From: a virus
DNA length: 39,550 nucleotides
Strand: one strand, 5' to 3'
IMG/VR virus record: IMGVR_UViG_3300026534_000115
Coordinates: 1-39,550 of that record
In this document: positions 10,247-23,499 of the stretch, in pieces
Layout: each line of letters starts with the position of its first letter
Numbering within the stretch: position 1 is the stretch's first letter
Notes under the pieces: generated by a model
The model's database searches: none
Seen by the model: only the letters and a program-made list of their open reading frames with translations
What the model was told of the DNA's origin: nothing
Made by a program: the position numbers and the translations under genes

Positions 10247-10781
10247 AGGCGTCTGCCCCACCTGCGGCGCCAAGTTCGATCTGGCCCACGCCCTCCAGGA
10301 CGGCGAAGCCCGCCAGGCCCTGGCCGCCGCCCTGTCCCTGCCGGCCCCGTTGGCCCGCCTGGTGGTGCCGTACCTGTCCCTCCACGCCCCCGGCAAAAAG
10401 CGCATCGCCTGGCGCAAGCTGGCCCGCCTCCTGCGCGAGCTGGTCGCCCTGATCGAGGCCGGCCAGGTCACGAGCGGCGGCCAGTCTCACGCCGCCCCGC
10501 TGGAACTGTGGCGGGAAGGGCTGGAGAAAGTGCTGGCCGCCGCCGAGGCCGGGCAACTGACCCTCCCCCTCGAGGGCCACGGCTATCTCACCAAAGTGGT
10601 CTGGACCGAGGCCGCCCGGCGCGCCGGCAGACAGGCCGCCGCGCAAAAGCCAATGCACCCAAGTCACCGCCCGGTGGCGCCCCCCACCCAACCCTCCCCC
10701 CGGCGGGGGGAGGGCCAGGGAGGGGGGGAATCCATCGCCGAGCACCTGGAACGGATGAAACGGAGCGTCGGCAAGCGATGA
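10236..10781 (+). CDS. Early protein with N-terminal zinc-ribbon-like knuckle, unknown function
   Basis: A 181-residue protein starting at GTG 10236, with GGAGGGA 6 bases upstream and an 11-base overlap with gemA. The N-terminus carries CPTCGAKF, half of a zinc ribbon. The middle is helical, with a stretch suited to DNA or protein contacts (PGKKRIAWRKLARLLRELVALI). Residues about 143-162 are encoded by an inserted palindromic repeat, giving a Pro/Gly/Arg-rich segment. The C-terminus (EHLERMKRSVGKR) resumes a normal helix. It sits between gemA and mor; I know no assigned function. Confidence 0.75.
   Translation: MPIEGVCPTCGAKFDLAHALQDGEARQALAAALSLPAPLARLVVPYLSLHAPGKKRIAWRKLARLLRELVALIEAGQVTSGGQSHAAPLELWREGLEKVLAAAEAGQLTLPLEGHGYLTKVVWTEAARRAGRQAAAQKPMHPSHRPVAPPTQPSPRRGEGQGGGESIAEHLERMKRSVGKR
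10676..10732 (+). repeat. REP-like palindromic element inside a coding sequence
   Basis: CCCTCCCCCC (10692-10701) and GGGGGGAGGG (10705-10714) form a perfect 10-bp stem with a 3-base loop, in a C-then-G-rich segment. It reads through in frame as PTQPSPRRGEGQGGG. Peptides of this kind are the usual translation of dispersed palindromic repeats in GC-rich proteobacteria. It appears to be an insertion tolerated by the host gene. Confidence 0.65.
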
Positions 10782-11185
10782 TCGATCTGTCTCTGATTCC
10801 GCCGGGATTCCGCCAGGTCGTGGAACTCGTCGGCCCGACCGCCGCCATGGCGCTGGTCGAGCGTTACGGCGGCCTCGAGCTCCACGTCCCGGCCCGTTTC
10901 AGCGCCGACATGCCCTTGTGCGCCCTGGTCGGCCCCGAGGCCGCCAGGAAGCTGGTGCAGATGTACGGCCACACCAAACTCTACATCCCCCTGTGCCAGC
11001 GCGCCCTGGTCGCCGCCAGAAACGCCGAGATCCTGGCCCGCTACCAGGCCGGCGAATCCCCCAGGGTCATCGCCCGGGACTGTCAGATGAGCGAGCGCTG
11101 GGTGTGGGAGATCATCCGCAAGACCCGGCGCGGGCGGACGGATGGCGATGGGGGGCAGGTTGAGGTATTCGATTTATGGAAATAA
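10778..11185 (+). CDS. mor: Mor-family middle transcription activator
   Basis: The 135-residue protein fits the Mor/C family of Mu. The N-terminal dimerisation domain has the repeated beta-hairpin pattern (MALVERYGGLELHVPARF and KLVQMYGHTKLYIPL). The C-terminal helix-turn-helix (residues about 93-122) includes ILARYQAGESPRVIARDCQM and SERWVWEIIRKTRR. Mor binds a dyad next to a weak -35 box and recruits RNA polymerase to the next operon. No second Mor/C copy is visible, so this one may drive all later transcription. The start overlaps the preceding TGA (ATGA). Confidence 0.93.
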   Translation: MIDLSLIPPGFRQVVELVGPTAAMALVERYGGLELHVPARFSADMPLCALVGPEAARKLVQMYGHTKLYIPLCQRALVAARNAEILARYQAGESPRVIARDCQMSERWVWEIIRKTRRGRTDGDGGQVEVFDLWK

Positions 11186-12002: not shown

Positions 12003-12068
12003 GCGTTACACCGCCTGAAAACCGGGCTTCAGCCCAGTTTCAAGCCGCCCCTTCGGGGGTGGTTTTCC
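12003..12068 (-). repeat. 66-nt dispersed repeat, copy 1 (with terminator-like hairpins)
   Basis: Read on the minus strand, this segment aligns without gaps to 21009-21074 on the plus strand at 53 of 66 positions. It encodes the last codons (KTTPEGAA, stop) of the leftward gene and continues past it. It contains two hairpins: CCGCCCC-TTCG-GGGGTGG (12045-12062) followed by TTTT in the plus direction, and AACCGGGCT/AGCCCAGTT. It probably ends transcription from both sides. Confidence 0.65.
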
Positions 12069-13134
12069 CATCGTAATATGCCACGATGCCCTTGATCTGA
12101 TCGGCGAATTTGTATATCTCGCTCAGATCCGCAATCGGGTGCCTGGTTTCCTTTCTGTCGTCGCCGTCTGGCTCGAAGGTTCCCAGGTATTTCTGGGCGC
12201 GGTTGAAATGCAGTCGGCAAATGGGCTTGCGATTGTTGTCGTCCAGCAAAATGCCACAGTAAGATTTTCGATCCCGCATCGCCACGCGAGCCGGGTCGAT
12301 GGACTCGCGCAGGATAGCTCGGACGATATAGAAGCCTTCCAGCTCTTCCTCAGTCGTTACAATTTCATCTTGTTCGTTGTCGTTTTCCTCGCTGTGATCC
12401 GAGCTTGCTTCGATGGGATCCGTTGCGACCAAGGCGGACTTAAGACGCTCATTGATTTTCTCGTTGATGAACTGGTTGACAGCTCTCTGTACGATCGTGG
12501 AGAACTGCTCCTTGACCGCCTGAGTAATGGGCTTGGTATACACCCGCTTTACCAAAAACCGAATGAACTCGTCTGAAGGCGATGAGACTTCTTTTGCCAG
12601 AACCCGCTTTATCTCTCTGGTGTACTTCAGGTCGCTAGCAGCATTTACCGCAGATTCCAAGTCAAATCCGGATTTGGTGAATTTTTTGATCTCAGGGATC
12701 AGGGTCTCGTCTACCTCCAGAATGTTGAATTCCAGAAATGGGCGCTCATCCATCTTGTTGGGTTCATCTAGATCAGTGAAAAACCTGTAGGTGACACCGT
12801 TTGTCAGAATGCCGATCCGAGCTCTGGTGACACTGAAGTATCGATAAAGCTGGGAAGCATGTATTTCATCTAGGTTGGTTTTGCAACTTTTGCACTCGAT
12901 CAACATTATCGGTTCACCGTCTTGTGTAATGGCATAATCGACCTTTTCACCCTTTTTGATGCCTACATCGGCGTTAAATTCCGGAATGACCTCCATCGGA
13001 TTGAAGATGTCGTATCCAAGCAACTGGATGAATGGTAGGATGAATGCCGTTTTTGTCGCCTCTTCCGTTTCTATAGCCGGTAACTGTTTCTGGATTTTAG
13101 CCGCAAGCGATTGAATCTGATCGATCAAATCCAT
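12040..13134 (-). CDS. HsdR N-terminal-like PD-(D/E)XK protein (accessory)
   Basis: The 364-residue protein resembles the stand-alone family related to the N-terminal nuclease domain of type I restriction subunit HsdR. The nuclease core is at residues 20-120: acidic residues 22-25 in an N-terminal helix, Asp66 (EKVDYAI), Glu80-x-Lys82 (MLIECKSCK) and QLYRYF (95-100). There is no helicase part. The C-terminal half ends in a beta-rich domain (YCGILLDDNNRKPICRLHFN) after an acidic linker. AAGGAGG lies 8 bases before the start. It is leftward, AT-richer and flanked by a dispersed repeat, so it is phage cargo. A role in restriction or superinfection exclusion is possible but unproven. Confidence 0.8.
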   Translation of the reverse strand: MDLIDQIQSLAAKIQKQLPAIETEEATKTAFILPFIQLLGYDIFNPMEVIPEFNADVGIKKGEKVDYAITQDGEPIMLIECKSCKTNLDEIHASQLYRYFSVTRARIGILTNGVTYRFFTDLDEPNKMDERPFLEFNILEVDETLIPEIKKFTKSGFDLESAVNAASDLKYTREIKRVLAKEVSSPSDEFIRFLVKRVYTKPITQAVKEQFSTIVQRAVNQFINEKINERLKSALVATDPIEASSDHSEENDNEQDEIVTTEEELEGFYIVRAILRESIDPARVAMRDRKSYCGILLDDNNRKPICRLHFNRAQKYLGTFEPDGDDRKETRHPIADLSEIYKFADQIKGIVAYYDGKTTPEGAA

Positions 13135-13189: not shown

Positions 13190-13199
13190 GTGTATACAC
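13190..13199. promoter_or_regulatory. Perfect 10-bp palindrome upstream of the lysis operon
   Basis: GTGTATACAC is self-complementary and lies 4 bases before the conserved 52-nt leader of the lysis operon. A binding site for Mor or another late activator is a reasonable guess. The second copy of the leader (22491) has no such palindrome in front. Confidence 0.35.
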
Positions 13200-13202
13200 T
13201 CC

Positions 13203-13254
13203 ACTGAACCCCATCCCCCTTCATCCCCTCTTCCGCCGCCTTTAGGCTGGCGGC
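13203..13254 (+). promoter_or_regulatory. Conserved 52-nt late-operon leader, copy A
   Basis: These 52 bases match 22491-22542 at 43 positions without gaps, and both end exactly at an ATG opening a late operon. The pyrimidine-rich part ATCCCCCTTC is identical. The last 20 bases form a hairpin, GCCGCC-TTTAGGCT-GGCGGC, whose 3' arm abuts the start codon and takes the place of a Shine-Dalgarno. It may be a late promoter/leader or a translational control element. Confidence 0.7.
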
Positions 13255-13767
13255 ATGGACGCCGATTTCATCATCGATCAAATCATCCGCCGCGAGGGCG
13301 GCTACGTCAACCACCCGGCCGACCGCGGCGGGCCGACCAAGTACGGCATCACCCAGGCCACGTTGAGCCGCTGGCGCCGGGGCGATCCGGTGTCCCCGTC
13401 GGACGTGGAGGCGCTGACCGAAGCCGAGGCCCGGCGCATCTACCGCGTCCTCTACATCACCCGCCCCGGCTTCCACATGATCGAGCACGCCCCCCTGCGC
13501 ACCCTGGTGGTCGATTGCGGTGTCCACCACGGCGTCCGGCGGGCGGCCGAGTGGCTGCAGGAGGCCGCGGGTGTGCCGGTGGACGGCATCGTGGGGCCGG
13601 TGACCCTGAAGGCGGTCAACGCCGCAGACGGCCACCTGCTGTACCGCAAGGTGCTGGCCACGCGGGCCAGATTCTACGGCTGGATCATCGCCCGCGACCA
13701 CGCCCAGGCGGTGTTCGCCCGCGGCTGGATGAAGCGTCTTGCCGAATTCATCGAAAACTGCCCATAA
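13255..13767 (+). CDS. Endolysin (GH108 N-acetylmuramidase, Mu gp22-like)
   Basis: The 170-residue protein matches the glycoside hydrolase 108 family with a C-terminal peptidoglycan-binding domain (PG_binding_3). The catalytic Glu14 lies in REGGYVNHPADRGGPTKYGI. The GTDGIVGP-like DGIVGPVTLKAVNA segment marks the binding domain near residue 105. It cleaves the glycan strands of the cell wall at lysis. There is no signal peptide or SAR helix, so it needs a holin, which I cannot identify. It opens the first late operon behind the conserved leader, as lys does in Mu. Confidence 0.93.
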   Translation: MDADFIIDQIIRREGGYVNHPADRGGPTKYGITQATLSRWRRGDPVSPSDVEALTEAEARRIYRVLYITRPGFHMIEHAPLRTLVVDCGVHHGVRRAAEWLQEAAGVPVDGIVGPVTLKAVNAADGHLLYRKVLATRARFYGWIIARDHAQAVFARGWMKRLAEFIENCP

Positions 13768-13775
13768 GGTGCCTC

Positions 13776-13997
13776 ATGAAACGATTGATCCCCCTGATCG
13801 CCCTGATTTCCCTGACCGGTTGCCAGCAGGCCCTGGTGGCCAAGAAGGCCGTCGATGCCGTGTTCGCCGAGGGCGTCAGCCTGTATTGCCGCCTCCCGGA
13901 GACGGCCCGGCTGGCCAACCGCGAGCGGATCGCCGCCCGGATCTTTCCGCACCGCATCGAGATTCATTGCTTCCAGGTCTCGCGCAGCGGGGGCTGA
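13776..13997 (+). CDS. Small lipoprotein of the lysis cassette
   Basis: A 73-residue protein with a type II signal sequence: MKRLIPLIALISLTGC, with the lipobox LTGC and Cys16 as lipidation site. The mature part is short and helical (ALVAKKAVDAVFAEGVSLYC), with two more cysteines. It follows the endolysin by 8 bases. Outer-membrane lipoproteins at this place are often o-spanins, but the usual Pro-rich segment and a partner i-spanin gene are missing, so the spanin role is only a possibility. Confidence 0.75.
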   Translation: MKRLIPLIALISLTGCQQALVAKKAVDAVFAEGVSLYCRLPETARLANRERIAARIFPHRIEIHCFQVSRSGG

Positions 13998-13998
13998 C

Positions 13999-14370
13999 AT
14001 GCGGTTTCTCACTCGACTGGTGACCGAATTCCTGCCCGAATCCGGTAGGCGGCGGCTGATACGGCCGCTGATCGCCCAGGACCCGGACAATCCCTGTCTG
14101 ACGATCGTCGTCCCCTGCCGGTTCGAGACGGATTTCGCCAGCGTACCCAAACGGTTCCGTCGCTGGATCGACAACGACGAACACTGGCTGGTGCGTCCCG
14201 CCGTCCTCCACGACTGGCTCTATAGCGAGGGCATCGGCACTCGCGCCCAGGCTGACAAAATCCTCTACCGCGCCTGTCTGTCCGAGGGTTCGCCCAGATT
14301 GGCCGCCTGGGTCGTGTGGGCGGCGGTGCGGGCCTTCGGCGGCCGTCATTACGGCAGGGAGGGCGCGTGA
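13999..14370 (+). CDS. DUF1353 family phage protein
   Basis: A 123-residue protein with the DUF1353 pattern: LTIVVPCRFETDFASVPKRF (about 35-54), then WLVRPAVLHDWLYSEG and RAQADKILYRACLSEG. The conserved His-Asp and Asp residues are present. The family is widespread in phage lysis and head regions, with no proven reaction. The ATG lies one base after the lipoprotein stop codon, and its own stop overlaps the GTG of the next gene (GTGA). Confidence 0.85.
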   Translation: MRFLTRLVTEFLPESGRRRLIRPLIAQDPDNPCLTIVVPCRFETDFASVPKRFRRWIDNDEHWLVRPAVLHDWLYSEGIGTRAQADKILYRACLSEGSPRLAAWVVWAAVRAFGGRHYGREGA

Positions 14371-14702
14371 CCCTGGAGCAGATCCAACTGATCCTGACCG
14401 CCGTCAACATGGTCGGCACCGGCGCGGTGTGGCTCTACGTCCATCTCCAGGGCCGACGCCGGGTCACCGAGGACCGCCTGCGCAAGATGGCCGACGACAT
14501 CGACGCCCGTCTCGACGGTCACGGCCAGCGCCTCGCCGCCCTGGAGCAGGCCAGGGAGAGCGAGGTCAACCACGACCACCTGGCAGAGCTGTGGCAGGCG
14601 TTCCGCCAGACCCAGTCGCTGCTGTCCGAAATCAAGGGCAAGCAGGAAACCTTCCATGACATGCTCAAGGAACTGATCCGCCGCCAATGGGAGAAACCAT
14701 GA
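14367..14702 (+). CDS. DUF2730 membrane-anchored protein (Mu gp25-like)
   Basis: A 111-residue protein with one N-terminal membrane helix (IQLILTAVNMVGTGAVWLYV) followed by about 80 residues of coiled coil (LRKMADDIDARLDGHGQRL and onwards). This is the plan of Mu gp25 (DUF2730). It starts at GTG 14367, which overlaps the previous TGA, with GGGAGG upstream. The function of the family is unknown. A lysis role has been guessed because of its position and membrane anchor. Confidence 0.85.
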   Translation: MTLEQIQLILTAVNMVGTGAVWLYVHLQGRRRVTEDRLRKMADDIDARLDGHGQRLAALEQARESEVNHDHLAELWQAFRQTQSLLSEIKGKQETFHDMLKELIRRQWEKP

Positions 14703-14986
14703 CCGATCTGGAAACGCGATTCCGCCGTCATGCCCTGTTGCGCATCCTGGCCGAGGAACCGGACCGCAAACATAACCTCCACGTGCTCCAGCGCCTGCTG
14801 GACCTGGCGGGCCTGCCGGCCTCGCTCGATTTGCTGCGGGCGGAATTGAGCTGGCTGCAGGAAATGGGCTTGTTGGAAACCGACGACGCCTGCGGCATTC
14901 TCTGCGCCCGCATCACCGCCCGCGGGGTGGACGTGGCCATGGGGCGCACGAAAGTGCCTGGTGTCGAAAGCCCGGGCCCGGCCTGA
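14699..14986 (+). CDS. Mu gp26-like small winged-helix protein
   Basis: The 95-residue protein appears to be a winged helix (FRRHALLRILAEEP, LDLLRAELSWLQEMGLLE, then ITARGVDVAMG). It lies between the DUF2730 gene and the small terminase candidate, exactly where Mu has gp26. The ATG overlaps the previous stop codon, and its own stop overlaps the next start (TGATG). It likely contributes to DNA packaging or regulation, but no direct role is known to me. Confidence 0.82.
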   Translation: MTDLETRFRRHALLRILAEEPDRKHNLHVLQRLLDLAGLPASLDLLRAELSWLQEMGLLETDDACGILCARITARGVDVAMGRTKVPGVESPGPA

Positions 14987-15546
14987 TGGGACGCAAGAGC
15001 ACCGTGGACAAACTGCCCCCCGACATCCGCCGGCAACTGGAGGCGCTGCTGGCCGATCCCCGCATGACCCAGCTCCAGGTCACCGAAGAGATCAACCAGG
15101 CGCTCGAACGCCACGACATCGAGTGGCGCCTGTCCAAATCCGCCGTCAACCGCTACGCCCAGCGCATGAGAGCCGTGCTGCAGAAGATGCACGAGCGCAA
15201 CCAGGTGGCGGAGATGTGGCTGGCCAAGTTCGGCCGTATTCCCCAAGGGAGATTGGGCCAGCTCATCATCAACATGATCCACGGGCTGGCCTTCGAGGCC
15301 GGTTTGAAACTGCACGACGGCGAGATCGACCCGGACGAGCTGCCGGAGCTGGTCCAGATGCTGCGGGGGCTGTCGGTGACCATCGAAAAGCTGGAGAAAG
15401 CCGCCAGCCTGAACGCCGAGCGGGAGGCGGAGATCCGGGAAGCCGAGCGCCGACGCGCCGCCGAAGAGTTGGCGGCGCTGGAAAACAAGCCCGGCCTGGA
15501 CGCCGAGACGATCAAAAAGGTGCGCGAGGCCCTCTATGGCGCCTGA
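14986..15546 (+). CDS. DUF3486 protein (Mu gp27-like), likely small terminase subunit
   Basis: The 186-residue protein begins GRKSTVDKLPPDIRRQLEAL, typical of DUF3486, with an HTH region (about 22-60, TQLQVTEEINQAL and SKSAVNRYAQRM) and a long C-terminal coiled coil (about 125-170). Mu gp27 is the presumed small terminase, which recognises the phage end and loads the large subunit. It lies directly before the large terminase, overlapping it by 11 bases. Confidence 0.88.
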   Translation: MGRKSTVDKLPPDIRRQLEALLADPRMTQLQVTEEINQALERHDIEWRLSKSAVNRYAQRMRAVLQKMHERNQVAEMWLAKFGRIPQGRLGQLIINMIHGLAFEAGLKLHDGEIDPDELPELVQMLRGLSVTIEKLEKAASLNAEREAEIREAERRRAAEELAALENKPGLDAETIKKVREALYGA

Positions 15547-16873
15547 CCCGGTCCTGCTGCCGTACCAGCGCAGCTACCTCAAAGACGCCAGCCGGTTCAA
15601 GGCGGGCATGTGGTCGCGTCAGACCGGCAAAACCTTTACCACCACCCTGGAGGCGGTCATCGACGTCCTCGAGGCCGAGGCCGCCGGAAAGCAGCGCCGC
15701 TGGACCATTCTCTCGGTATCGCGCGACCGGGCGCTAGATGCGATGGAAAACGGCGTGAAACTGCATCTACGCGCCTTTCAAGCCGCCTTCGAAAGCCTCG
15801 ACGTGCCGCTGGAGGCCGACGAGCTGGCGCACCTGGTCCGGCTGCCGGGCGGCTCCTATATCCGTGCCGTCGCTTCCAAGCCCGCCACCGCCCGCGGCAT
15901 GAGCGACAACCTGATCCTGGACGAATTCGCCCATCATCAGGACAACCGCGCCATCTGGACCGCCCTGTTCCCGGTGATCTCTCGCCGCGATCTGAAGCTG
16001 CGGGTGATCTCGACGCCAAACGGCAAGGGGGACAAGTTCTACGAAATCATGACCGATCCGGATTCGCCGTTCTCGCGCCACGTGGTCACCATCTACGATG
16101 CGGTGGCCGACGGCCTCGACCGCGACATCGAGGAGCTTCGGCGCGGCATCGGCGATCCGGTCGCCTGGCGGCAGGAGTTCTGCTGCGAGTTCATCGACGA
16201 GGCGTCCGCCTGGCTCCCCTACGATCTGATCGACGCCTGCGAGGAACCGAACGCGGGCGACCCGGTGCGCTACGGCGGCGGCCCGTGTTACGTCGGCATG
16301 GACATCGCCGCCCGCGGCGACCTGACCGTCATCGCGGTCCTGGAGGACACCGGCGGCCGCCTGTGGTGCCGGGAGCTCGTCGAGATGCGCGGCGCTCCGT
16401 TCGCCGAGCAATTGGCGGCCCTCGACCGGGTGATGCGTGACTACCGCGTGGTGCGTTGCGCCATGGACCAGACCGGCATGGGGGAGATGCCGGTCGAGGA
16501 AGCCAGGCGCCGCCACGGCCAATACCGCATCGAGGGCGTGCTGCTCACCGCCTCCCGCAAGCTCGATCTGGCCACCTGTCTCAAGGAAGCGATGGAGGAC
16601 CGCCGCCTGGCGATTCCGCCGTCCCAGGATCTGCGCACCGATCTGCACGCGGTTCAGCGGGTGCCCGGCGCCACCGGTGCCCCGCGCCTGGTGGCCGAGC
16701 GCGGCCCGGCCGGCCACGCCGACCGCTTTTGGGCCCTGGCGCTGGCGGTTTCCGCCGCCGCCACCGGTCACGAGCGCTTCGGCTATGTGCCGGTCCGGCT
16801 CCGCCGCGCGCCGGACGACGACCCGACGCCGCGCCCCGTGCGCGTGACCGCCGGATTCAAGGGAGGACTGTAA
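15536..16873 (+). CDS. Large terminase subunit (Mu gp28-like)
   Basis: The 445-residue protein has the packaging ATPase and nuclease of Mu gp28. Walker A is SRQTGKT (27-33), Walker B is NLILDEFAHH with Asp129-Glu130, and the coupling motif is VISTPNGKG. The RNase H-like nuclease starts at VGMDIAARGDLTVIAVLED (Asp near 256). Further acidic residues follow in AMDQTGMGEMPVEEA and GHADRFWALAL. It powers headful packaging that starts at the left phage end. The start at ATG 15536 lies inside the small terminase gene. Confidence 0.95.
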   Translation: MAPDPVLLPYQRSYLKDASRFKAGMWSRQTGKTFTTTLEAVIDVLEAEAAGKQRRWTILSVSRDRALDAMENGVKLHLRAFQAAFESLDVPLEADELAHLVRLPGGSYIRAVASKPATARGMSDNLILDEFAHHQDNRAIWTALFPVISRRDLKLRVISTPNGKGDKFYEIMTDPDSPFSRHVVTIYDAVADGLDRDIEELRRGIGDPVAWRQEFCCEFIDEASAWLPYDLIDACEEPNAGDPVRYGGGPCYVGMDIAARGDLTVIAVLEDTGGRLWCRELVEMRGAPFAEQLAALDRVMRDYRVVRCAMDQTGMGEMPVEEARRRHGQYRIEGVLLTASRKLDLATCLKEAMEDRRLAIPPSQDLRTDLHAVQRVPGATGAPRLVAERGPAGHADRFWALALAVSAAATGHERFGYVPVRLRRAPDDDPTPRPVRVTAGFKGGL

Positions 16874-18420
16874 TGCCGCCGATCAAAACGACCATGCCCA
16901 GAGGGCTGCGCCAGCAGGATCTCAAACGCGAAATCGCCGGCCCCGGCCTGACCGGCATCCGCCAGGCATGGAACGCCGCCACCGTGGCCGCGGGCCTGAC
17001 CCCGGCGCGTCTGGCGCGGATACTGCGCGGGGCCGACGCCGGCGACCTGCACGACTATCTGACCCTGGCCGAGGAGATGGAGGAGCGCGACCCCCATTAC
17101 GCCGCGGTGCTGGGGGTGCGCAAGCGGGCCGTGCTGGGACTGGCGCCGGTGGTGGAGGCTGCCACCGACGCCGCCCGCGATATCGAGATCGCCGACGCGG
17201 TGCGCGAGCTGACGGCCGATCCAGGTTTCGTCGAGCTGTGCGCCGACCTGCTCGACGCCCTGGGCAAGGGATTCGCCGTGTGCGAGATCGTCTGGACCAC
17301 CGGCAGGCGCTGGGTTCCGGCAGAATACCACTGGCGCGATCCCCGGTGGTTCCGGTTCGACCCGGTCGACGGCCGCACCCTGCGCCTGCTCGACGAACGG
17401 TCCCCGGACGGCCTGCCGCTGCCGCCCTACAAGTTCGCCGTCCACGTCCCCAGGCTCAAGTCGGGCCTGCCGATCCGCGGCGGGCTGGCCCGGCTGGCCT
17501 CGGCCGCCTTGATGTGCAAGTCCTACACCGTGGCCGACTGGATGGCCTTCGCCGAGGTGTTCGGCATGCCCCTGCGTCTGGGGCGCTACGGGCCCGGGGC
17601 CAGCGAGGCCGACATCGAGACCCTGGTGCGGGCGGTGGCCAACCTGGGGCACGACGCCGCCGCCGTCCTGCCGGACTCGATGCGCATCGAATTCCAGGAG
17701 GCCGGGCAGGGAGCCGGCGGCCACGAGCTGTTCCTGCGCCTGGCCGAATGGCTCGACCGCCAGATCTCCAAGGCGGTGCTGGGCCAGACCATGACCGCCG
17801 ATTCCGGTTCATCCTACGCCCAGGCCAAGGTCCACGACGAGGTGCGCGCCGACATCCTGGAGGCCGACGCCCGCCAGCTGGCCGCCACCCTGCAGCGCGA
17901 CCTGGTGATTCCGTTCGTCGATCTCAACTTCGGCCCCCAGCCGGTTTATCCGCGCCTGACCCTGCCGGTGCGCGAGCCGGAGGACATCACCGCCCTGGCC
18001 GACGCCCTGGCCAAACTGGTGCCGTTGGGGAACCTGGGCATCCAGGCGTCGGTGGTGCGCGACCGGCTCGGCTTCCCGGACCCGGAGGACGGCGCCGACC
18101 TGCTGGGCCAACCCGCCGCCCCGGCCCTCCAGCGCGCCGCCAACCGGCAGAGTGCGGCGGCCGCCCACCCGGCCGCCGTCATGGCCGACACCCTGGCAGG
18201 CCAGGCCGACGCCGAAATCGCCCGAATGCTCGACCGGATCCGCGTCATGCTCGACCAGGCCGGCGACCTGGAACAGTTCAAGGAAATGCTCCTGGCCGCC
18301 TACGGGGATCTGGATTCTGGCGGTTTGGTCGAGGCCATTGGGCAGGCGATGACCGCGTCCCACCTGGCCGGCCGCTACGATCTGGCCAAGGGCTCGGGGC
18401 TCCTCGATGGCGAGAATTGA
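16873..18420 (+). CDS. Portal protein (DUF935, Mu gp29-like)
   Basis: The 515-residue protein matches the DUF935 portal family: the opening segment after residue 35, EEMEERDPHYAAVLGVRKRA, the VCEIVWTTGRRWVP block, and the late VLGQTMTADSGSSYAQAKVH motif. It forms the dodecameric ring at the head vertex through which DNA enters and leaves. The C-terminal 110 residues are helical and Ala-rich. The ATG overlaps the TAA of the terminase gene (TAATG), and it overlaps gpF by 14 bases. Confidence 0.95.
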   Translation: MPPIKTTMPRGLRQQDLKREIAGPGLTGIRQAWNAATVAAGLTPARLARILRGADAGDLHDYLTLAEEMEERDPHYAAVLGVRKRAVLGLAPVVEAATDAARDIEIADAVRELTADPGFVELCADLLDALGKGFAVCEIVWTTGRRWVPAEYHWRDPRWFRFDPVDGRTLRLLDERSPDGLPLPPYKFAVHVPRLKSGLPIRGGLARLASAALMCKSYTVADWMAFAEVFGMPLRLGRYGPGASEADIETLVRAVANLGHDAAAVLPDSMRIEFQEAGQGAGGHELFLRLAEWLDRQISKAVLGQTMTADSGSSYAQAKVHDEVRADILEADARQLAATLQRDLVIPFVDLNFGPQPVYPRLTLPVREPEDITALADALAKLVPLGNLGIQASVVRDRLGFPDPEDGADLLGQPAAPALQRAANRQSAAAAHPAAVMADTLAGQADAEIARMLDRIRVMLDQAGDLEQFKEMLLAAYGDLDSGGLVEAIGQAMTASHLAGRYDLAKGSGLLDGEN

Positions 18421-19606
18421 GGTCAGCCCCGACGGGGCCAGCATCGAAAACGCCCGCCTGCCCTTCACCGAGCAGATCGCCTTCTTCCGCGGCAAGCTGG
18501 GCAATCTGATTCCCACGCGAAGGTGGGACGACATCCAGAAGTCCGCCCACGACAAAAGTTTCATGGTCGCCGGGGCGATGAAGGCGGACCTTTTGGCCGA
18601 CCTGGCCCAGGCTGTCGATCGGGCCGTCGCCGACGGCAAATCCATCCAGTGGTTCCGGGAAAATTTCTTCGAGATCGTCGCCAGGCACGGCTGGACCGGC
18701 TACACCGGCGCCGATACCAAAAAGGGCCGGGCCTGGCGTACCCGGGTGATCTACCAGACCAACCTGCTCACCAGTTACAACGCCGGGCGGCTGGCGCAAC
18801 TGAAAGAGGGCGGATTCAAATACTGGATCTACCACCACGACGACTCGGTGCGCCATCCAAGGCCCTTGCACCAGGCTTGGGACGGGCTGAGCCTGCCGGC
18901 AAGTCACGACTTCTGGAAAACCCATTACCCGCCCAACGGCTGGGGCTGCCAATGCTACCTCTCCGGCGCCCGCTCGGAACGCGGCGCCAGAAGGCTCGGC
19001 GGCGACCCGGACAAACCGATCGACCCCGAGTGGCTCAAGACCGACCCCAAGACCGGGGCGCCGGTGGGCATCGACAAGGGCTGGGACTATATGCCTGGGG
19101 CGACGGTGGTCGATACGGTGCGGGCGCTGCGGGACAAGCTCGACCGGTTGCCGCCGCGGCCCGCTATCGCTGTCATTCAGGATTGGCTGGGGACAGAGGC
19201 GTTCGCCGCCTGGCTCGACAACCCGCAAGGCAACTGGCCCCTGGTCCGGCTGCCCGACGAGGATGCCGGGCGCATCGGGGCGCAGACGACGGTGGCCGAC
19301 CTGTCGCCGGAGACGGCGGCCAAGCAGAAACGCGAGCACCCGGAGCTGACGCCGGAAGAATACCTCCTGGCTCAGCGGGTGATCGATGGGCCAGATTACA
19401 AGCAGGTCGAGAAGAATCCAAAAACCGGCACCCAAAGTCTGGTTTACATCCAGGTTATCGACGGCAACGACAGTGGTGGTTACGTGCTGGTGGTCAAAGC
19501 CACCAAGAGCGGGAAGGGATTGTTCGTGACCAGCTACCGTCGCCTGTCCCGGCAGGAAGCGGAGCGTGACCGAGAAATCCAGCGGATTTTGCGGCGACGC
19601 AAATAA
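18407..19606 (+). CDS. F: Head morphogenesis protein gpF with C-terminal nuclease-like domain
   Basis: The 399-residue protein has the Mu gp30/SPP1 gp7 minor head domain in residues 20-200: RTRVIYQTNLLTSYNAGR, the YHHDDSVRHPRPLH block and HYPPNGWGCQC. It is present in few copies near the portal. After a linker, residues about 310-399 (HPELTPEEYL, LVYIQVIDGND, VLVVKATKSGKGLFVTSYRR) look like the Barnase-EndoU-ColicinE5/D-RelE-like domain (PBECR2) that is fused to gpF in many phages. Enzyme activity in this copy is not established. Confidence 0.93.
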   Translation: MARIEVSPDGASIENARLPFTEQIAFFRGKLGNLIPTRRWDDIQKSAHDKSFMVAGAMKADLLADLAQAVDRAVADGKSIQWFRENFFEIVARHGWTGYTGADTKKGRAWRTRVIYQTNLLTSYNAGRLAQLKEGGFKYWIYHHDDSVRHPRPLHQAWDGLSLPASHDFWKTHYPPNGWGCQCYLSGARSERGARRLGGDPDKPIDPEWLKTDPKTGAPVGIDKGWDYMPGATVVDTVRALRDKLDRLPPRPAIAVIQDWLGTEAFAAWLDNPQGNWPLVRLPDEDAGRIGAQTTVADLSPETAAKQKREHPELTPEEYLLAQRVIDGPDYKQVEKNPKTGTQSLVYIQVIDGNDSGGYVLVVKATKSGKGLFVTSYRRLSRQEAERDREIQRILRRRK

Positions 19607-19767
19607 AAAATGGGGCGACACCTGGACCGCCCCGTGGGCACTGCGCGGTGGGCTCCCCTGACCACCGACGGAACCTTTGGGCCCCAGGTCTGCCCTCAGC
19701 GGATGCCGGGAGACTTTGCCGCAGCGCCTTGCAAACATTATAGACCGATAGGCGACGGAGACGTTCC
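19607..19767 (+). promoter_or_regulatory. Gap before gpG: hairpin and candidate promoter
   Basis: GGGGCG/CGCCCC (19612-19633) forms a 6-bp stem preceded by six A, so it would end leftward rather than rightward transcription. Further on, TTGCCG (19716-19721), 17 bases and TATAGA (19739-19744) form a plausible promoter 24 bases before the GTG of gpG. There is no gene in this gap. Confidence 0.4.
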
Positions 19768-20244
19768 GTGATCCGCATCCACATCGACGACCGCCAGATT
19801 CAACAGGCCCTGCGCCGCCTCCAGGAGGCCGCAGACGACCTCACCCCCGCCCTCGAGGACATCGGCGAGTATCTCGCCCGTGCCACCCGTCAGCGTTTCG
19901 CCGAGGGCAAAGACCCAAATGGCGCTCCCTGGGAACCGCTGTCGGCCAGGACAATCGCCCGAAAGGGCCACGCCAAACCCCTGATCGGCGAGACCGGTCT
20001 GTTGAGAAAGATCCGCTACCAACTGGAAGGGCCGGACACGGTGGTCGTCGGCACCGGTGCCGAATATGGCGCCACCCACCAGTTCGGGGCCAAAAAGGGC
20101 CAGTTCGGCAAGACACGGAAGGGCCGCCCCATCCCCTGGGGCGACATCCCCGCCCGGCCGTTTTTGGGTGTCTCTGACGAGAACCGGACCGCCATCCTCG
20201 ACATCCTCGCCGAGCATCTGGAAGGCGCGATTCATGGGCGCTGA
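19768..20244 (+). CDS. G: Virion morphogenesis protein gpG (Mu gp31-like)
   Basis: The 158-residue protein fits the phage virion morphogenesis/tail completion family: the opening IRIHIDDRQIQQALRRLQEA, DIGEYLARATRQRFAEGKDPNGAPW, then TGLLRKIRYQ, YGATHQFGAKKG and PARPFLGVSDE. In Mu, gpG is needed for head and tail completion. It starts with GTG and is separated from gpF by 161 bases, unusual in this tightly packed operon. It is the last gene of the first late operon before a leftward accessory gene. Confidence 0.9.
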   Translation: MIRIHIDDRQIQQALRRLQEAADDLTPALEDIGEYLARATRQRFAEGKDPNGAPWEPLSARTIARKGHAKPLIGETGLLRKIRYQLEGPDTVVVGTGAEYGATHQFGAKKGQFGKTRKGRPIPWGDIPARPFLGVSDENRTAILDILAEHLEGAIHGR

Positions 20245-20346
20245 TTTCAGCGTTTTCTTATGAGCGATTCTGAGGCGATTTCAGCGCCGTTTTCACCAAT
20301 CCCGCTACCTAGAGTCATGTGGCATTCCTTTCGCGTCTTCATGGTT

Positions 20347-20364
20347 GTTTAACCCCTGTTTAAC
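20347..20364. repeat. Tandem 11-bp-spaced motif, 3' side of the leftward gene
   Basis: GTTTAAC occurs at 20347-20353 and 20358-20364, exactly 11 bases apart, just over one DNA turn. A related pair (GTTAAT twice, 11 bases apart) lies at the other end of the gene, at 20907-20923. The second copy here overlaps the stop codon of the leftward gene. Confidence 0.5.
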
Positions 20365-20902
20365 TTTGATGTTCATCCTTGGGTCTCGGACGGAAGAATT
20401 GGTTCGGGTCGGGAAAGCCCTTCGCCGCCAGGGCCATGAACCAACGGAAGTTGGTTTCACCGCTGTATTGGCCCTTGGCGACGTTGCCGAACAGCCCGGC
20501 GGCGAAGAACACCTCCTTCTCCCACACGCCAGGTCGCAAACCGATGGCCCGCAGCCAGTCCAGGTCCAAGATGCTTTCCTCCAGCGGATAATCGGAAGCG
20601 TTGGGATTGAGATAATGCCAGTTGGGCGCATCGGTCCAAATGTGGGTGACGTCGGCGTGCATCGGCAGGCCGCCCGCGTGTTTCCAGGCCGCCTCGGCCA
20701 ACAGTCGCCGGGGCCGGGTCAGCCAATTCGGCTCCACGCCCAGCATCAATTCCAGGCCGGTCAGTTCCGACACCCCCAGCGCTTCGGCAAACGCCCCCTT
20801 GGTGCCTTTGCCGGTGTAGACCGCCCGGGCGAAGGTCTGGACGAACCGGGCCATGCGCTCGAACGGCAGGCCGGCGCAGTCGATGGCGACGAGATTCGTC
20901 AT
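20360..20902 (-). CDS. Leftward accessory gene of unknown function
   Basis: The 180-residue protein runs against the late operons. It appears helical, with many aromatic residues (WLTRPRRLLAEAAWKHAGG, HIWTDAPNWHYLNPNA, NFRWFMALAAKGFPDPNQFF). There is no signal peptide, membrane segment, nuclease motif or P-loop. I do not recognise the family. An extended -10 promoter faces it and operator-like repeats lie between that promoter and its ATG, so it is probably an independently regulated moron expressed in the lysogen. Immunity, exclusion or host fitness roles are all open. Confidence 0.75.
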   Translation of the reverse strand: MTNLVAIDCAGLPFERMARFVQTFARAVYTGKGTKGAFAEALGVSELTGLELMLGVEPNWLTRPRRLLAEAAWKHAGGLPMHADVTHIWTDAPNWHYLNPNASDYPLEESILDLDWLRAIGLRPGVWEKEVFFAAGLFGNVAKGQYSGETNFRWFMALAAKGFPDPNQFFRPRPKDEHQS

Positions 20903-20906
20903 GATG

Positions 20907-20923
20907 GTTAATACCCTGTTAAT
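20907..20923. promoter_or_regulatory. Tandem operator-like motif before the leftward gene
   Basis: GTTAAT is repeated at 20907-20912 and 20918-20923, 11 bases apart. It lies between the extended -10 box (20926-20934) and the ATG of the leftward gene, around the expected transcription start, as an operator would. The same arrangement with GTTTAAC is found at the gene's 3' end. Confidence 0.45.
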
Positions 20924-20925
20924 CC

Positions 20926-20934
20926 GTTATAACA
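20926..20934 (-). promoter_or_regulatory. Extended -10 promoter for the leftward gene
   Basis: On the minus strand TG-T-TATAAC (20934-20926) is an extended -10 element, one base from consensus in the hexamer. No good -35 hexamer lies 17 bases upstream, which extended -10 promoters can do without. The transcript would begin close to 20919, about 17 bases before the ATG. Confidence 0.45.
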
Positions 20935-21008
20935 ATAGCATTTTAAGACGGATTGGACAGGGTCTGAATCGTCACCCCTCATTTCCCCAGTCTGATTTTG
21001 GCGGGCAC

Positions 21009-21074
21009 GAAAAACCGTCCCCGAAGGGGCGGCTTGAAGGGGCCTTGAAGCCCGGTTTCCAGGCAGCGTAAAGC
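21009..21074 (+). repeat. 66-nt dispersed repeat, copy 2
   Basis: The segment aligns without gaps to the reverse complement of 12003-12068 (53 of 66 identical). The cores CCCCGAAGGGGCGGCTTGAA and TGAAGCCCGG are the same in both. In the frame that matches copy 1 it still spells KTVPEGAA and a stop, although no long gene precedes it, so it may be the relic end of a lost accessory gene or a transferable terminator module. Confidence 0.65.
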
Positions 21075-21122
21075 CGCTCTAAAGTCTCTACTGGCGCCGC
21101 AAGAAAAATAAACCAGATCAGG

Positions 21123-21150
21123 TTGAATTTTTCTCCAGTAATGGTACAAT
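21123..21150 (+). promoter_or_regulatory. Promoter of the HTH/ImmA pair
   Basis: TTGAAT (21123-21128), 16 bases and TACAAT (21145-21150) form a good sigma-70 promoter about 80 bases before the HTH gene. Being independent of late phage control, it could work in the lysogen. Confidence 0.55.
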
Positions 21151-21229
21151 TAGGGTTGAGGATGGGTTATCGATAAAGCGTACGGTTAGGTGAAGACTCT
21201 AGTGGAGATACAGAATTGGAGGTGCAGCA

Positions 21230-21598
21230 ATGAAGCTCAGCCCGTTTGGCAAGGCGGTTCGCAAACTTCGGATAAGTCGCGGGGAAACGCAGTTCGACGC
21301 TGCGAACGCGGTTGGGGTTTCAGTTGCTTTTTGGTCGGCCATCGAGACGGGCAGGAAGCACGTGCCGGAGGATTTGTTGCGGAGGATCGTGGCCCATTTC
21401 GAACTCTCAAATGAGGAGGCCAAAGAGCTGGAACGATTGGCGTGGATTTCCCGTAAGGAAGTCACCATCAACATGGAAAATCTTAGCGACCAAAACCGCG
21501 AACTGGTTGTTGGCTTTGCCAGGAAATTCAGCGAACTGAATGAGGAAACCAAACGAAAATTGCGCAACTTGTTGGAACAAAAGGGAGGGCTTTCGTAG
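21230..21598 (+). CDS. XRE-family regulator of the HTH/ImmA pair
   Basis: The 122-residue protein has a Cro/CI helix-turn-helix at residues 5-65 (FGKAVRKLRISRGETQFDAA, VSVAFWSAIETGRKHVP) and a charged helical C-terminus (FARKFSELNEETKRKLRNLL) likely to dimerise. GGAGGTG stands 6 bases before the ATG. The final A of its TAG overlaps nothing, but the next gene starts at the GTG formed by the stop codon's last base, so they are coupled. Together they resemble ImmR-ImmA of ICEBs1, where ImmA cleaves the repressor; whether that holds here is inferred. Confidence 0.85.
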   Translation: MKLSPFGKAVRKLRISRGETQFDAANAVGVSVAFWSAIETGRKHVPEDLLRRIVAHFELSNEEAKELERLAWISRKEVTINMENLSDQNRELVVGFARKFSELNEETKRKLRNLLEQKGGLS

Positions 21599-22152
21599 TG
21601 TCCGACAGTGTCGTTCTAGCCCCGCCCCTCAGCAGATACCGGATCCGTGAGGCAGCTAAGAGCGTTCGGATGATCTGGTGTGATCTGACGGGGCGGGATG
21701 ATCCGTACTTTCCCATCGTCGAATTTCTCGATGTGGTGCTGCCAGCTGCAAACGATGAATTCGTTCTTGATGTCTTGCCTATGGAAACCATGGGCGACGT
21801 CCATGGCATGACCTACCCTGATCGGAATCTGATCCAAATCCGGGAGGATGTGTATCTAGGGGCAAAGCGCGGGATAGGCCGCGACAGAATGACGATGGCT
21901 CACGAACTTGGACATTATGTTTTGCACGCCGGCCTGGGCTTGGCTCGCGCAATTCCAGCGGAAAAAGTCGCAGCGTACCGGAGCAGCGAATGGCAAGCCA
22001 ACGCTTTCGCCGGCGAATTGCTGATTTCTGCCAACCATATTTCCGTGTGTAGGAATGCTTCGGAGGCGAAACTGAAATTTGGCGTATCAGCGCAAGCTGC
22101 TGAATACCAATGGCGGATATTTGAACGTGACGGATTGGTAAGGAAAAGGTGA
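21598..22152 (+). CDS. ImmA/IrrE-type metallopeptidase
   Basis: A 184-residue protein with the zinc peptidase signature HELGH at 102-106 in MTMAHELGHYVLHAGLG and the third-ligand region around Glu131 (SSEWQANAFAGELLI). This matches the ImmA/IrrE (Peptidase_M78) family, whose members cut HTH repressors or act in stress signalling. It starts with GTG overlapping the TAG of the upstream HTH gene, its likely substrate. The pair is AT-richer than the phage structural genes and has its own promoter, so it is cargo. It could equally be an antitoxin-type or defence module. Confidence 0.88.
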   Translation: MSDSVVLAPPLSRYRIREAAKSVRMIWCDLTGRDDPYFPIVEFLDVVLPAANDEFVLDVLPMETMGDVHGMTYPDRNLIQIREDVYLGAKRGIGRDRMTMAHELGHYVLHAGLGLARAIPAEKVAAYRSSEWQANAFAGELLISANHISVCRNASEAKLKFGVSAQAAEYQWRIFERDGLVRKR

Positions 22153-22217
22153 CACCGAGTGGCCGCTCAATGTCACCTTGCTTCCAAGTGGGGTGCGCCG
22201 GGAGGACCCCACACTTG
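22146..22217 (+). terminator. Two hairpins after the ImmA-type gene
   Basis: AAGGTGACA (22146-22154, over the stop codon) pairs perfectly with TGTCACCTT (22171-22179). A second stem follows: CCAAGT-GGGGT against ACCCC-ACACTTGG (to about 22217) with a 2-base bulge. No strong T-run follows either. They may act as an mRNA end, or as a leader for the 45-residue gene downstream. Confidence 0.45.
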
Positions 22218-22310
22218 GCAGGCAGATTGCTAAAGTTTGCAATGCAATCATAGGCGAAACGGACGCCCCTGCCAAGAGCCAAAATCTCCTCCCGGAAGGA
22301 GGTGAGATAT

Positions 22311-22448
22311 GTGCAAAAGAGGCTGAAAAAGGCCCCACCGGGCTACCGTTGGGTTTTTACCCGCTTCCGCCGGGTGAAAAACTCCAACCGGTTGCTCGAC
22401 GCCCATGACTACGGTTATAAGTGTTGGGCATTCCTGGTGCGGGCCTGA
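22311..22448 (+). CDS. 45-residue basic protein with a perfect Shine-Dalgarno
   Basis: GTG 22311 opens a 45-codon frame, with AAGGAGGTGA (22296-22305), the full complement of the 16S rRNA tail, 5 bases upstream. The peptide is very basic and aromatic: QKRLKKAPPGYRWVFTRFRR, then NSNRLLDAHDYGYKCWAFLV. This composition and the conserved-looking GYRWVFTRFRR-then-YGYKCW pattern resemble small orphan phage proteins, possibly RNA- or DNA-binding. A terminator follows at once, so it may be a single-gene unit. Its function is unknown. Confidence 0.6.
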   Translation: MQKRLKKAPPGYRWVFTRFRRVKNSNRLLDAHDYGYKCWAFLVRA

Positions 22449-22456
22449 CCGGAGTA

Positions 22457-22487
22457 CGGCCGGGGCATCCGCTCCGGCCGCCTTTTC
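22457..22487 (+). terminator. Intrinsic terminator before the capsid operon
   Basis: CGGCCGG (22457-22463) pairs with CCGGCCG (22474-22480), extended by a G-T pair, around an 8-base loop. CCTTTTCTT follows. This is a good rho-independent terminator that isolates the second accessory block from the capsid operon. Confidence 0.75.
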
Positions 22488-22490
22488 TTG

Positions 22491-22542
22491 ACTGAATCCC
22501 ATCCCCCTTCGTCCGCCCGCCTGCCGCCTTTAATCTGGCGGC
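22491..22542 (+). promoter_or_regulatory. Conserved 52-nt late-operon leader, copy B
   Basis: This is the second copy of the leader seen at 13203-13254 (43 of 52 identical, no gaps). It lies between a terminator and the ATG of gpI. The end hairpin GCCGCC-TTTAATCT-GGCGGC is kept, with both arms identical and only two loop bases changed, and again touches the start codon. In Mu, separate late promoters lie before lys and before gene I, matching the two places where this leader occurs. Confidence 0.7.
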
Positions 22543-23499
22543 ATGAACGAAAGCAGTACCCCCATCCCTGCCCTGTGCCGCGCCCTGCCGGCGGGGGACG
22601 GCCCGCCCGAGTGGCTGTTGCTGGTGCCGGCGGGCCGCTTCGAGGGGCGTGACGGTCGCTTCTGGGTCAACGACCGGCCCGATGAAGTCGTCGCCGCCTT
22701 CGAAGCCGGCGGCCAGCCGCTGCCCATCGACTGGGAGCACGCCACCGAGATCAAGGCCCCGGCCGGCGATCCGGCCCCGGCCGCCGGCTGGATCACCGCC
22801 ATGGAGGTCCGCGGCGGCGAGGTCTGGGGGCGGGCGGAATGGACCGAGGCGGCGCTGGAACAGATAAAGGCCAAAGCCTACCGCTACTACAGCCCCGCCT
22901 TCCTGTTCGATCCCGATTCCCGCCGGGTGGCGGCCCTGACCTCGGTCGGGCTGACCAACCGGCCCAATCTCCACGTTCCCGCCTTGAACCAACGACAGGA
23001 GCACGCCATGCAGAAAGCGCTTCTGGCCGCCTTGGGCCTGCCCGAGACGGCCGACGACAAAGCGGTGCTGGATGCGGTGACGGCGCTGAAAGCGCGCCTG
23101 GATACCGCATTGAACGCCGCCCAAACCCCCAATCTGGAGCAGTACGTGCCCCGGGCCGATTACGACGCCGCCCTCAACCGGGCAAAGGAGGCCGAGGCGA
23201 AGTTGGCGGAAATGGAGCGGCAGCGCCTGGAGGCCGAGATCGAGGCCGAGATCGCCAAGGCCCTCGAGGCCGGCAAGATCACCCCGGCCACGGTGGACTA
23301 TCACAAGGCCCAGTGCCGCCTGGATGGCGGGCTGGAACGCTTCCGCCGATTCGTCGAGGCGGCGCCGGCCGTCGTCGACCGAAACGACCAGGCTGGCAGC
23401 CGGCCGCCCGAACAGGAACGGGCCTTGTGCGCCGAGGAACGCTACGTCTGCGCCCAGCTCGGCATCCCCGAGGATGAATTCTTGAAACTGAAGGAGTAA
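22543..23499 (+). CDS. I: Head protease and scaffold gpI (Mu gp32-like)
   Basis: The 318-residue protein matches Mu protein I (peptidase U35-like). The protease domain covers residues 1-150, with PIDWEHATE carrying a likely catalytic His and the KAKAYRYYSPAF and LTSVGLTNRPNL blocks. The C-terminal scaffold is coiled coil (RAKEAEAKLAEMERQRLEAE) and ends EDEFLKLKE. It guides capsid assembly, then digests the scaffold. It opens the capsid operon behind the conserved leader. A nested start at 23008 probably gives a separate scaffold. Confidence 0.93.
   Translation: MNESSTPIPALCRALPAGDGPPEWLLLVPAGRFEGRDGRFWVNDRPDEVVAAFEAGGQPLPIDWEHATEIKAPAGDPAPAAGWITAMEVRGGEVWGRAEWTEAALEQIKAKAYRYYSPAFLFDPDSRRVAALTSVGLTNRPNLHVPALNQRQEHAMQKALLAALGLPETADDKAVLDAVTALKARLDTALNAAQTPNLEQYVPRADYDAALNRAKEAEAKLAEMERQRLEAEIEAEIAKALEAGKITPATVDYHKAQCRLDGGLERFRRFVEAAPAVVDRNDQAGSRPPEQERALCAEERYVCAQLGIPEDEFLKLKE
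23008..23499 (+). CDS. Nested in-frame scaffold protein (gpZ-like)
   Basis: ATG 23008 lies in frame within gpI, with AGGAG 6 bases upstream, just after the end of the protease domain. Starting here gives 163 residues (MQKALLAALGLPETADDK onwards), exactly the coiled-coil scaffold. Mu makes its scaffold Z from the same kind of internal start, so this is a good candidate, though not proven from sequence. Confidence 0.6.
   Translation: MQKALLAALGLPETADDKAVLDAVTALKARLDTALNAAQTPNLEQYVPRADYDAALNRAKEAEAKLAEMERQRLEAEIEAEIAKALEAGKITPATVDYHKAQCRLDGGLERFRRFVEAAPAVVDRNDQAGSRPPEQERALCAEERYVCAQLGIPEDEFLKLKE

Follow-up and report, generated by a model that had tools for sequence, protein, structure and literature searches.

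Bacteriophage Mu is the textbook transposing phage, and late control has been mapped mainly in Mu itself. The lambda cI mRNA made from PRM is leaderless, its -10 element setting the transcription start (+1) at the A of the ATG with no Shine-Dalgarno (SD) motif. In Mu, the activator Mor binds 5-bp inverted repeats within a 16-bp element centred at -43.5, which replaces the -35 box (PMC4390567), and C is required for lys, I, P and mom (PMC4461284). At gene e of T4, the start is covered by a hairpin whose 5' strand overlaps a late promoter, and the late RNA is without the hairpin (PMC3014915).

The window analysed here is the whole stretch of 39,550 nucleotides of the viral record IMGVR_UViG_3300026534_000115, in which related 52-base sequences precede a lysis gene (lys) and a head gene (I). 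We consider it likely, from sequence comparison, that these 52-mers are the late promoters Plys and PI of the phage, activated by a Mor/C-family protein and transcribed from the start codon into leaderless mRNAs. Like the C-dependent Plys and PI and the Mor-dependent Pm of Mu, they combine the same two operon heads, the same activator family, a putative activator site near -44, conserved in its left half, where a -35 box would otherwise stand, and a weak -10; the Mu leaders, however, are longer and bear SD motifs, as read from the Mu sequence, whereas here the -10 ends 6 nt before the ATG. As at T4 gene e, a predicted hairpin reaches over the start with its 5' strand overlapping the predicted late promoter, but T4 employs its own late sigma factor and its late RNA keeps a ribosome binding site, of which none is predicted here. 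As at lambda PRM, the position of the -10 would put +1 at the A of the ATG and no SD is present, although a single regulatory gene is concerned in lambda and the heads of the lysis and capsid operons here. The kind of promoter is known from Mu; what is new is a -10 lying six bases before the ATG, an arrangement common to many relatives.

A repeated leader in a Mu-like prophage

The window corresponds to a Mu-like prophage encoding a transposase, transposition ATPase, GemA, a Mor/C-family activator and an endolysin, together with Gp27, a terminase, a minor head protein, a gpI protease and a major head protein (Pfam, PHROGs). The activator gene is situated upstream of both copies of the 52-mer, and the following features frame them:

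10778-11185, plus strand: Mor/C-family activator, the proposed trans-acting factor (ATG at 10778 inferred; Pfam Mor, E 2.8e-13; phrog_836, late transcriptional activator)
13255-13767, plus strand: endolysin (Glyco_hydro_108 and PG_binding_3; Pfam, PHROGs), first gene of the lysis/packaging unit
22457-22489, plus strand: strong intrinsic terminator immediately 5' of the I promoter (10-bp stem; 22457-22480 plus T-rich tail; z -3.5)
22543-23499, plus strand: gpI-like head maturation protease (phrog_328, E 7.5e-90), first gene of the capsid operon

Several further loci were noted in the window. Between the activator and the endolysin lies a type I restriction-like nuclease gene (HSDR_N, phrog_4225; 12040-13134) in the opposite orientation, on the minus strand, and the divergent intergenic region just 5' of the lys leader contains a perfect palindrome, GTGTATACAC (13190-13199). 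An HTH regulator followed by an M78 (ImmA-like) peptidase is found between the head genes and gpI (21230-22152), likely representing an accessory pair, while a tyrosine integrase gene (462-1559) is located near the Mu-type transposase.

Direct comparison of 13203-13254 with 22491-22542 bore out the initial annotation, which had described two gapless leaders identical at 43 of 52 positions before unrelated genes, with unchanged hairpin arms (GCCGCC/GGCGGC) and loops differing at two bases (TTTAGGCT and TTTAATCT). The likeness starts at ACTGAA, the edge of the putative operator, and stops at the ATGs of the endolysin and gpI-like protease genes, each copy abutting an ATG that is also the earliest possible start of its open reading frame. 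This is the only pair of non-overlapping, same-strand 52-mers in the window with at least 39 matches, and even with 3 mismatches allowed, either half of the motif gives exactly two hits, compared with 0.00 occurrences expected from shuffled sequence. The combined motif pattern was found at only these two places within its own genome and in 0 of 60 related genomes, and no convincing candidate for a third copy was identified in the window. Occurrence elsewhere in the host genome had been named as grounds for rejecting a late-control role; beyond the two heads, the own-genome search (BLAST) returned a single weak match, 24 bases long and within a kinase-like reading frame, that has the look of a chance hit. 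We rejected a host repeat as the source of the 52-mer, as the search found no further copy save this partial match.

Proposed promoter elements and their uncoupling in a sister phage

Each copy of the 52-mer possesses a half-conserved putative activator site, CTGAAYCCCATCC, starting at -51, followed by a candidate -10:

13204-13216, plus strand: putative Mor/C-type activator site of the lys promoter, CTGAACCCCATCC, from -51 relative to the ATG, with one base different in the I copy
13243-13248, plus strand: -10 hexamer TAGGCT of the lys promoter, last base 6 nt before the ATG (A(-11)/T(-7) enriched in relatives; TAATCT there in the sister phage)
22492-22504, plus strand: putative activator site of the I promoter, CTGAATCCCATCC, matching the lys copy; the sister phage shares CTGAANCCNATCC
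22531-22536, plus strand: -10 hexamer TAATCT of the I promoter, last base 6 nt before the ATG (A(-11)/T(-7) enriched in relatives)

The left half of the operator is well kept in the window, while the right half is degenerate, with ATCCC in place of TTCAG; TAGGCT is a weak match to a -10. No SD-like motif precedes lys or I, though many neighbouring genes have one. The GGCGGC arm of the hairpin had been described as lying exactly where an SD belongs, which did not hold: the arm occupies -6 to -1 and touches the ATG, too close to work, and SD motifs are depleted at such starts.

The sister phage G101, whose activator is 91-92% identical to that of the window, parts the promoter from the sequences around it. 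Its endolysin leader carries CTGAACCCAATCC and TAATCT at the same positions as in the window, but no inverted repeat is present before the endolysin. G101 has a second site, made up of CTGAATCCTATCC and TAAGCT with the 39-nt spacing retained. The gene that follows is a non-homologous head scaffold gene, its ATG 23 nt 3' of the predicted transcription start, and no match to gpI was found in this phage. The spacing from CTGAA to TANNNT is 39 nt at all four heads of the two phages, and a search of 8.5 Mb (both strands, all loci) for CTGAANCCNATCC-N26-TANNNT found the pattern at these heads only. Given that the operator and -10 are kept in G101 while the hairpin is missing and, at the scaffold gene, the ATG has shifted by 23 nt, the conserved unit is a promoter, with operator and -10, rather than a leader together with its gene.

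As a separate observation, the Mu I promoter region (L284:5450-5580) contains an inverted repeat, CTGCTCA/TGAGCAG, around the likely -10, CATGAT.

Late operon heads among relatives

Homologues of gpI were gathered from viral contigs and bacterial genomes, and 74 nonredundant gpI starts were compared with 397 other gene starts from the same loci. The pair A(-11)/T(-7) was found at 47% of gpI starts versus 3% of other genes (p 3e-22), expected start points being based in part on query starts hand-picked from a first survey. A [TC]AnnnT hexamer occupied -12 to -7 at 38% of gpI starts versus 1% of others, with 9% one base further upstream and background levels at displacements greater than 1 nt. 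Conversely, SD-like motifs preceded only 18% of gpI starts versus 64% of other genes (p 6e-14). A perfect 5-bp inverted repeat centred at -44.5, the place of the operator (e.g. CCTGAA-N4-TTCAGG), was detected at 20% of gpI starts and 0% of others. Taking the A of the ATG as +1, A(-11) and T(-7) would be the two key bases of a -10, and the operator of the relatives would lie within one base of the centre bound by Mor in Mu. Together, the placement of the -10, the depletion of SD motifs and a dyad at -44.5, close to the -43.5 of Mu, suggest that these late mRNAs are probably leaderless. The A(-11)/T(-7) pattern is absent from about half of gpI starts, which are partly misassigned starts and partly other arrangements.

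Of the 167 loci whose upstream sequence was long enough, 14 repeat their own gpI operator at a second place, followed in register by a -10 and an ATG and in nearly every case 7-9 kb upstream, compared with 0 for a reversed-operator control. Several of these second copies precede holin or endolysin genes, M15 endolysins included. Operators vary among phages (CCTGAA..TTCAGG, CCGGAAC..GTTCC, GTTGAACCCCTTCC) yet agree within each phage, and phage D3112 has the operator/-10/ATG layout at both heads. For Mu-like or transposable phages, literature searches returned nothing relevant on late genes lacking leaders, nor on start sites in D3112 or JBD30.

The promoter rule also bears on gene starts in D3112 and its relative LPB1. 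In D3112 (L288, 11794; about 19793 in the record) it puts the gpI start about 125 nt 5' of the annotated start, and in LPB1 gpI is annotated at the ATG that the rule predicts. An unannotated 115-aa open reading frame of LPB1 (L145:3106-3450; phrog_3648, E 5e-63), lying between mor and ORF20, is a predicted leaderless head; its ATG also exists in D3112.

The inverted repeat and the proposed mechanism

Both -10 elements of the window are enclosed by an inverted repeat:

13235-13254, plus strand: inverted repeat GCCGCC-TTTAGGCT-GGCGGC around the lys -10, abutting the ATG (6-bp RNA hairpin, -12.4 kcal/mol, z -3.0)
22523-22542, plus strand: inverted repeat GCCGCC-TTTAATCT-GGCGGC around the I -10, abutting the ATG (6-bp stem, -12.4 kcal/mol, z -3.7)

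The predicted hairpin covers the start region, its 5' strand overlapping the predicted late promoter and the -10 lying within its loop. Among relatives with A(-11)/T(-7), arm pairing outside the hexamer averages 4.39 bp, versus 3.33 +- 0.14 bp for partners swapped between phages, with no signal from the same test in control genes; complementarity of the arms also exceeds that of upstream stretches and shuffled flanks. Folding of the region in relatives with the -10 also exceeds that of composition-preserving shuffles (mean z -1.55 versus 0.07). We take the inverted repeat to be a frequent accessory in relatives.

The most attractive role for such a repeat, by analogy with T4 gene e (PMC3014915), is one in which late RNA would start inside the hairpin and escape it. 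That the promoter acts as proposed, with the repeat serving as a lock over the ATG of read-through RNA, is a serious possibility, if short of probable. Besides the T4 precedent and the excess complementarity over swapped, upstream and shuffled controls, it would accord with the placement of the arms, since the 3' arm ends at -1 in 23 of 44 good helices and at -2 in 14 more, while the 5' arm floats. Against this, reversed arms perform nearly as well (4.39 vs 4.09, p 0.036; p 0.14 without GGCGGC arms), and G-U pairs outnumber A-C by only 5 to 1 outside the masked hexamer (p 0.11); a first count of 17 to 1 was discarded, as it included T(-12).G(-6) pairs involving the -10 itself. Furthermore, the sister phage does without the repeat, and gpI is already shielded by a terminator.

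It is also quite possible, though again we would not call it probable, that the repeat is a DNA site, such as a repressor operator, or merely a GC-rich discriminator with no structural role. The 3' arms are mostly G-rich, resembling strong discriminators, and the near-equal match of reversed arms and the non-significant G-U excess with the -10 masked point the same way. However, the centre of the repeat ranges from -8.5 to -15.5 although its end keeps close to the ATG, which would be odd for a dimer site, and the advantage in folding over composition-preserving shuffles argues for structure.

An improbable alternative retains the same late promoter with a start within or upstream of the 5' arm, such that the hairpin would form in every late mRNA and switch its translation. 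The unchanged arms of the two copies, the pairing excess over swapped partners and the folding scores would suit such a switch, but the loop holds the best-placed -10, A(-11)/T(-7) keeps a constant distance to the ATG that an upstream start would not need, there is no SD to mask, and the sister phage retains operator and -10 without a hairpin. Finally, a recent duplication or chance likeness devoid of regulatory meaning, to which the presence of just two copies in the window might point, is extremely improbable, given that identity halts at the ATG and the operator edge, shuffles yield none, and independent phages show the pattern with other sequences.

The late-control element that the initial annotation proposed before lys and I is strongly supported by the Mor/C gene, the fixed operator/-10 geometry and the lysis and head operons of relatives; of its two suggested forms, the promoter is favoured over the translational switch, considering the missing SD, the -10 in the loop, a hairpin outside the predicted late mRNA and its absence in G101. 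A translational role for the hairpin is possible if limited to RNA reading through from upstream. For the leaderless promoter that we prefer, a dimer of the phage Mor/C-family protein would bind the CTGAAYCCCATCC site, which has its centre near -44.5 and would stand in for a -35 box, and host RNA polymerase with the main sigma factor would read TAGGCT or TAATCT as the -10. Transcription would start at the A of the ATG or one base before, leaving both late mRNAs leaderless. On read-through RNA, the GC-rich repeat would cover the ATG and block translation, which late RNA starting inside the repeat would escape. The support is sequence-based: the 52-base repeat, a gene for a Mor/C-family activator, a fixed geometry that relatives retain and that the sister phage uncouples from gene and ATG, and no SD before either gene; from these we infer activator binding, the start point and leaderless translation. 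Leaderlessness does not appear general to the Mu group, Mu itself having longer, SD-bearing leaders.

More tentatively, and with appreciable but less than even likelihood, many Mu-like phages may produce leaderless lysis and capsid mRNAs from an activator-dependent promoter in which a hairpin ending at the AUG holds the -10 in its loop, the same element silencing translation of read-through RNA. Strongly expressed genes in these hosts seldom have leaderless mRNAs. If the promoter reading is true, many relatives, among them the classic Pseudomonas phage D3112, would express their lysis and head operons through leaderless mRNAs, and the pattern would provide a rule by which late promoters can be located, gene starts corrected and activator sites predicted from sequence.
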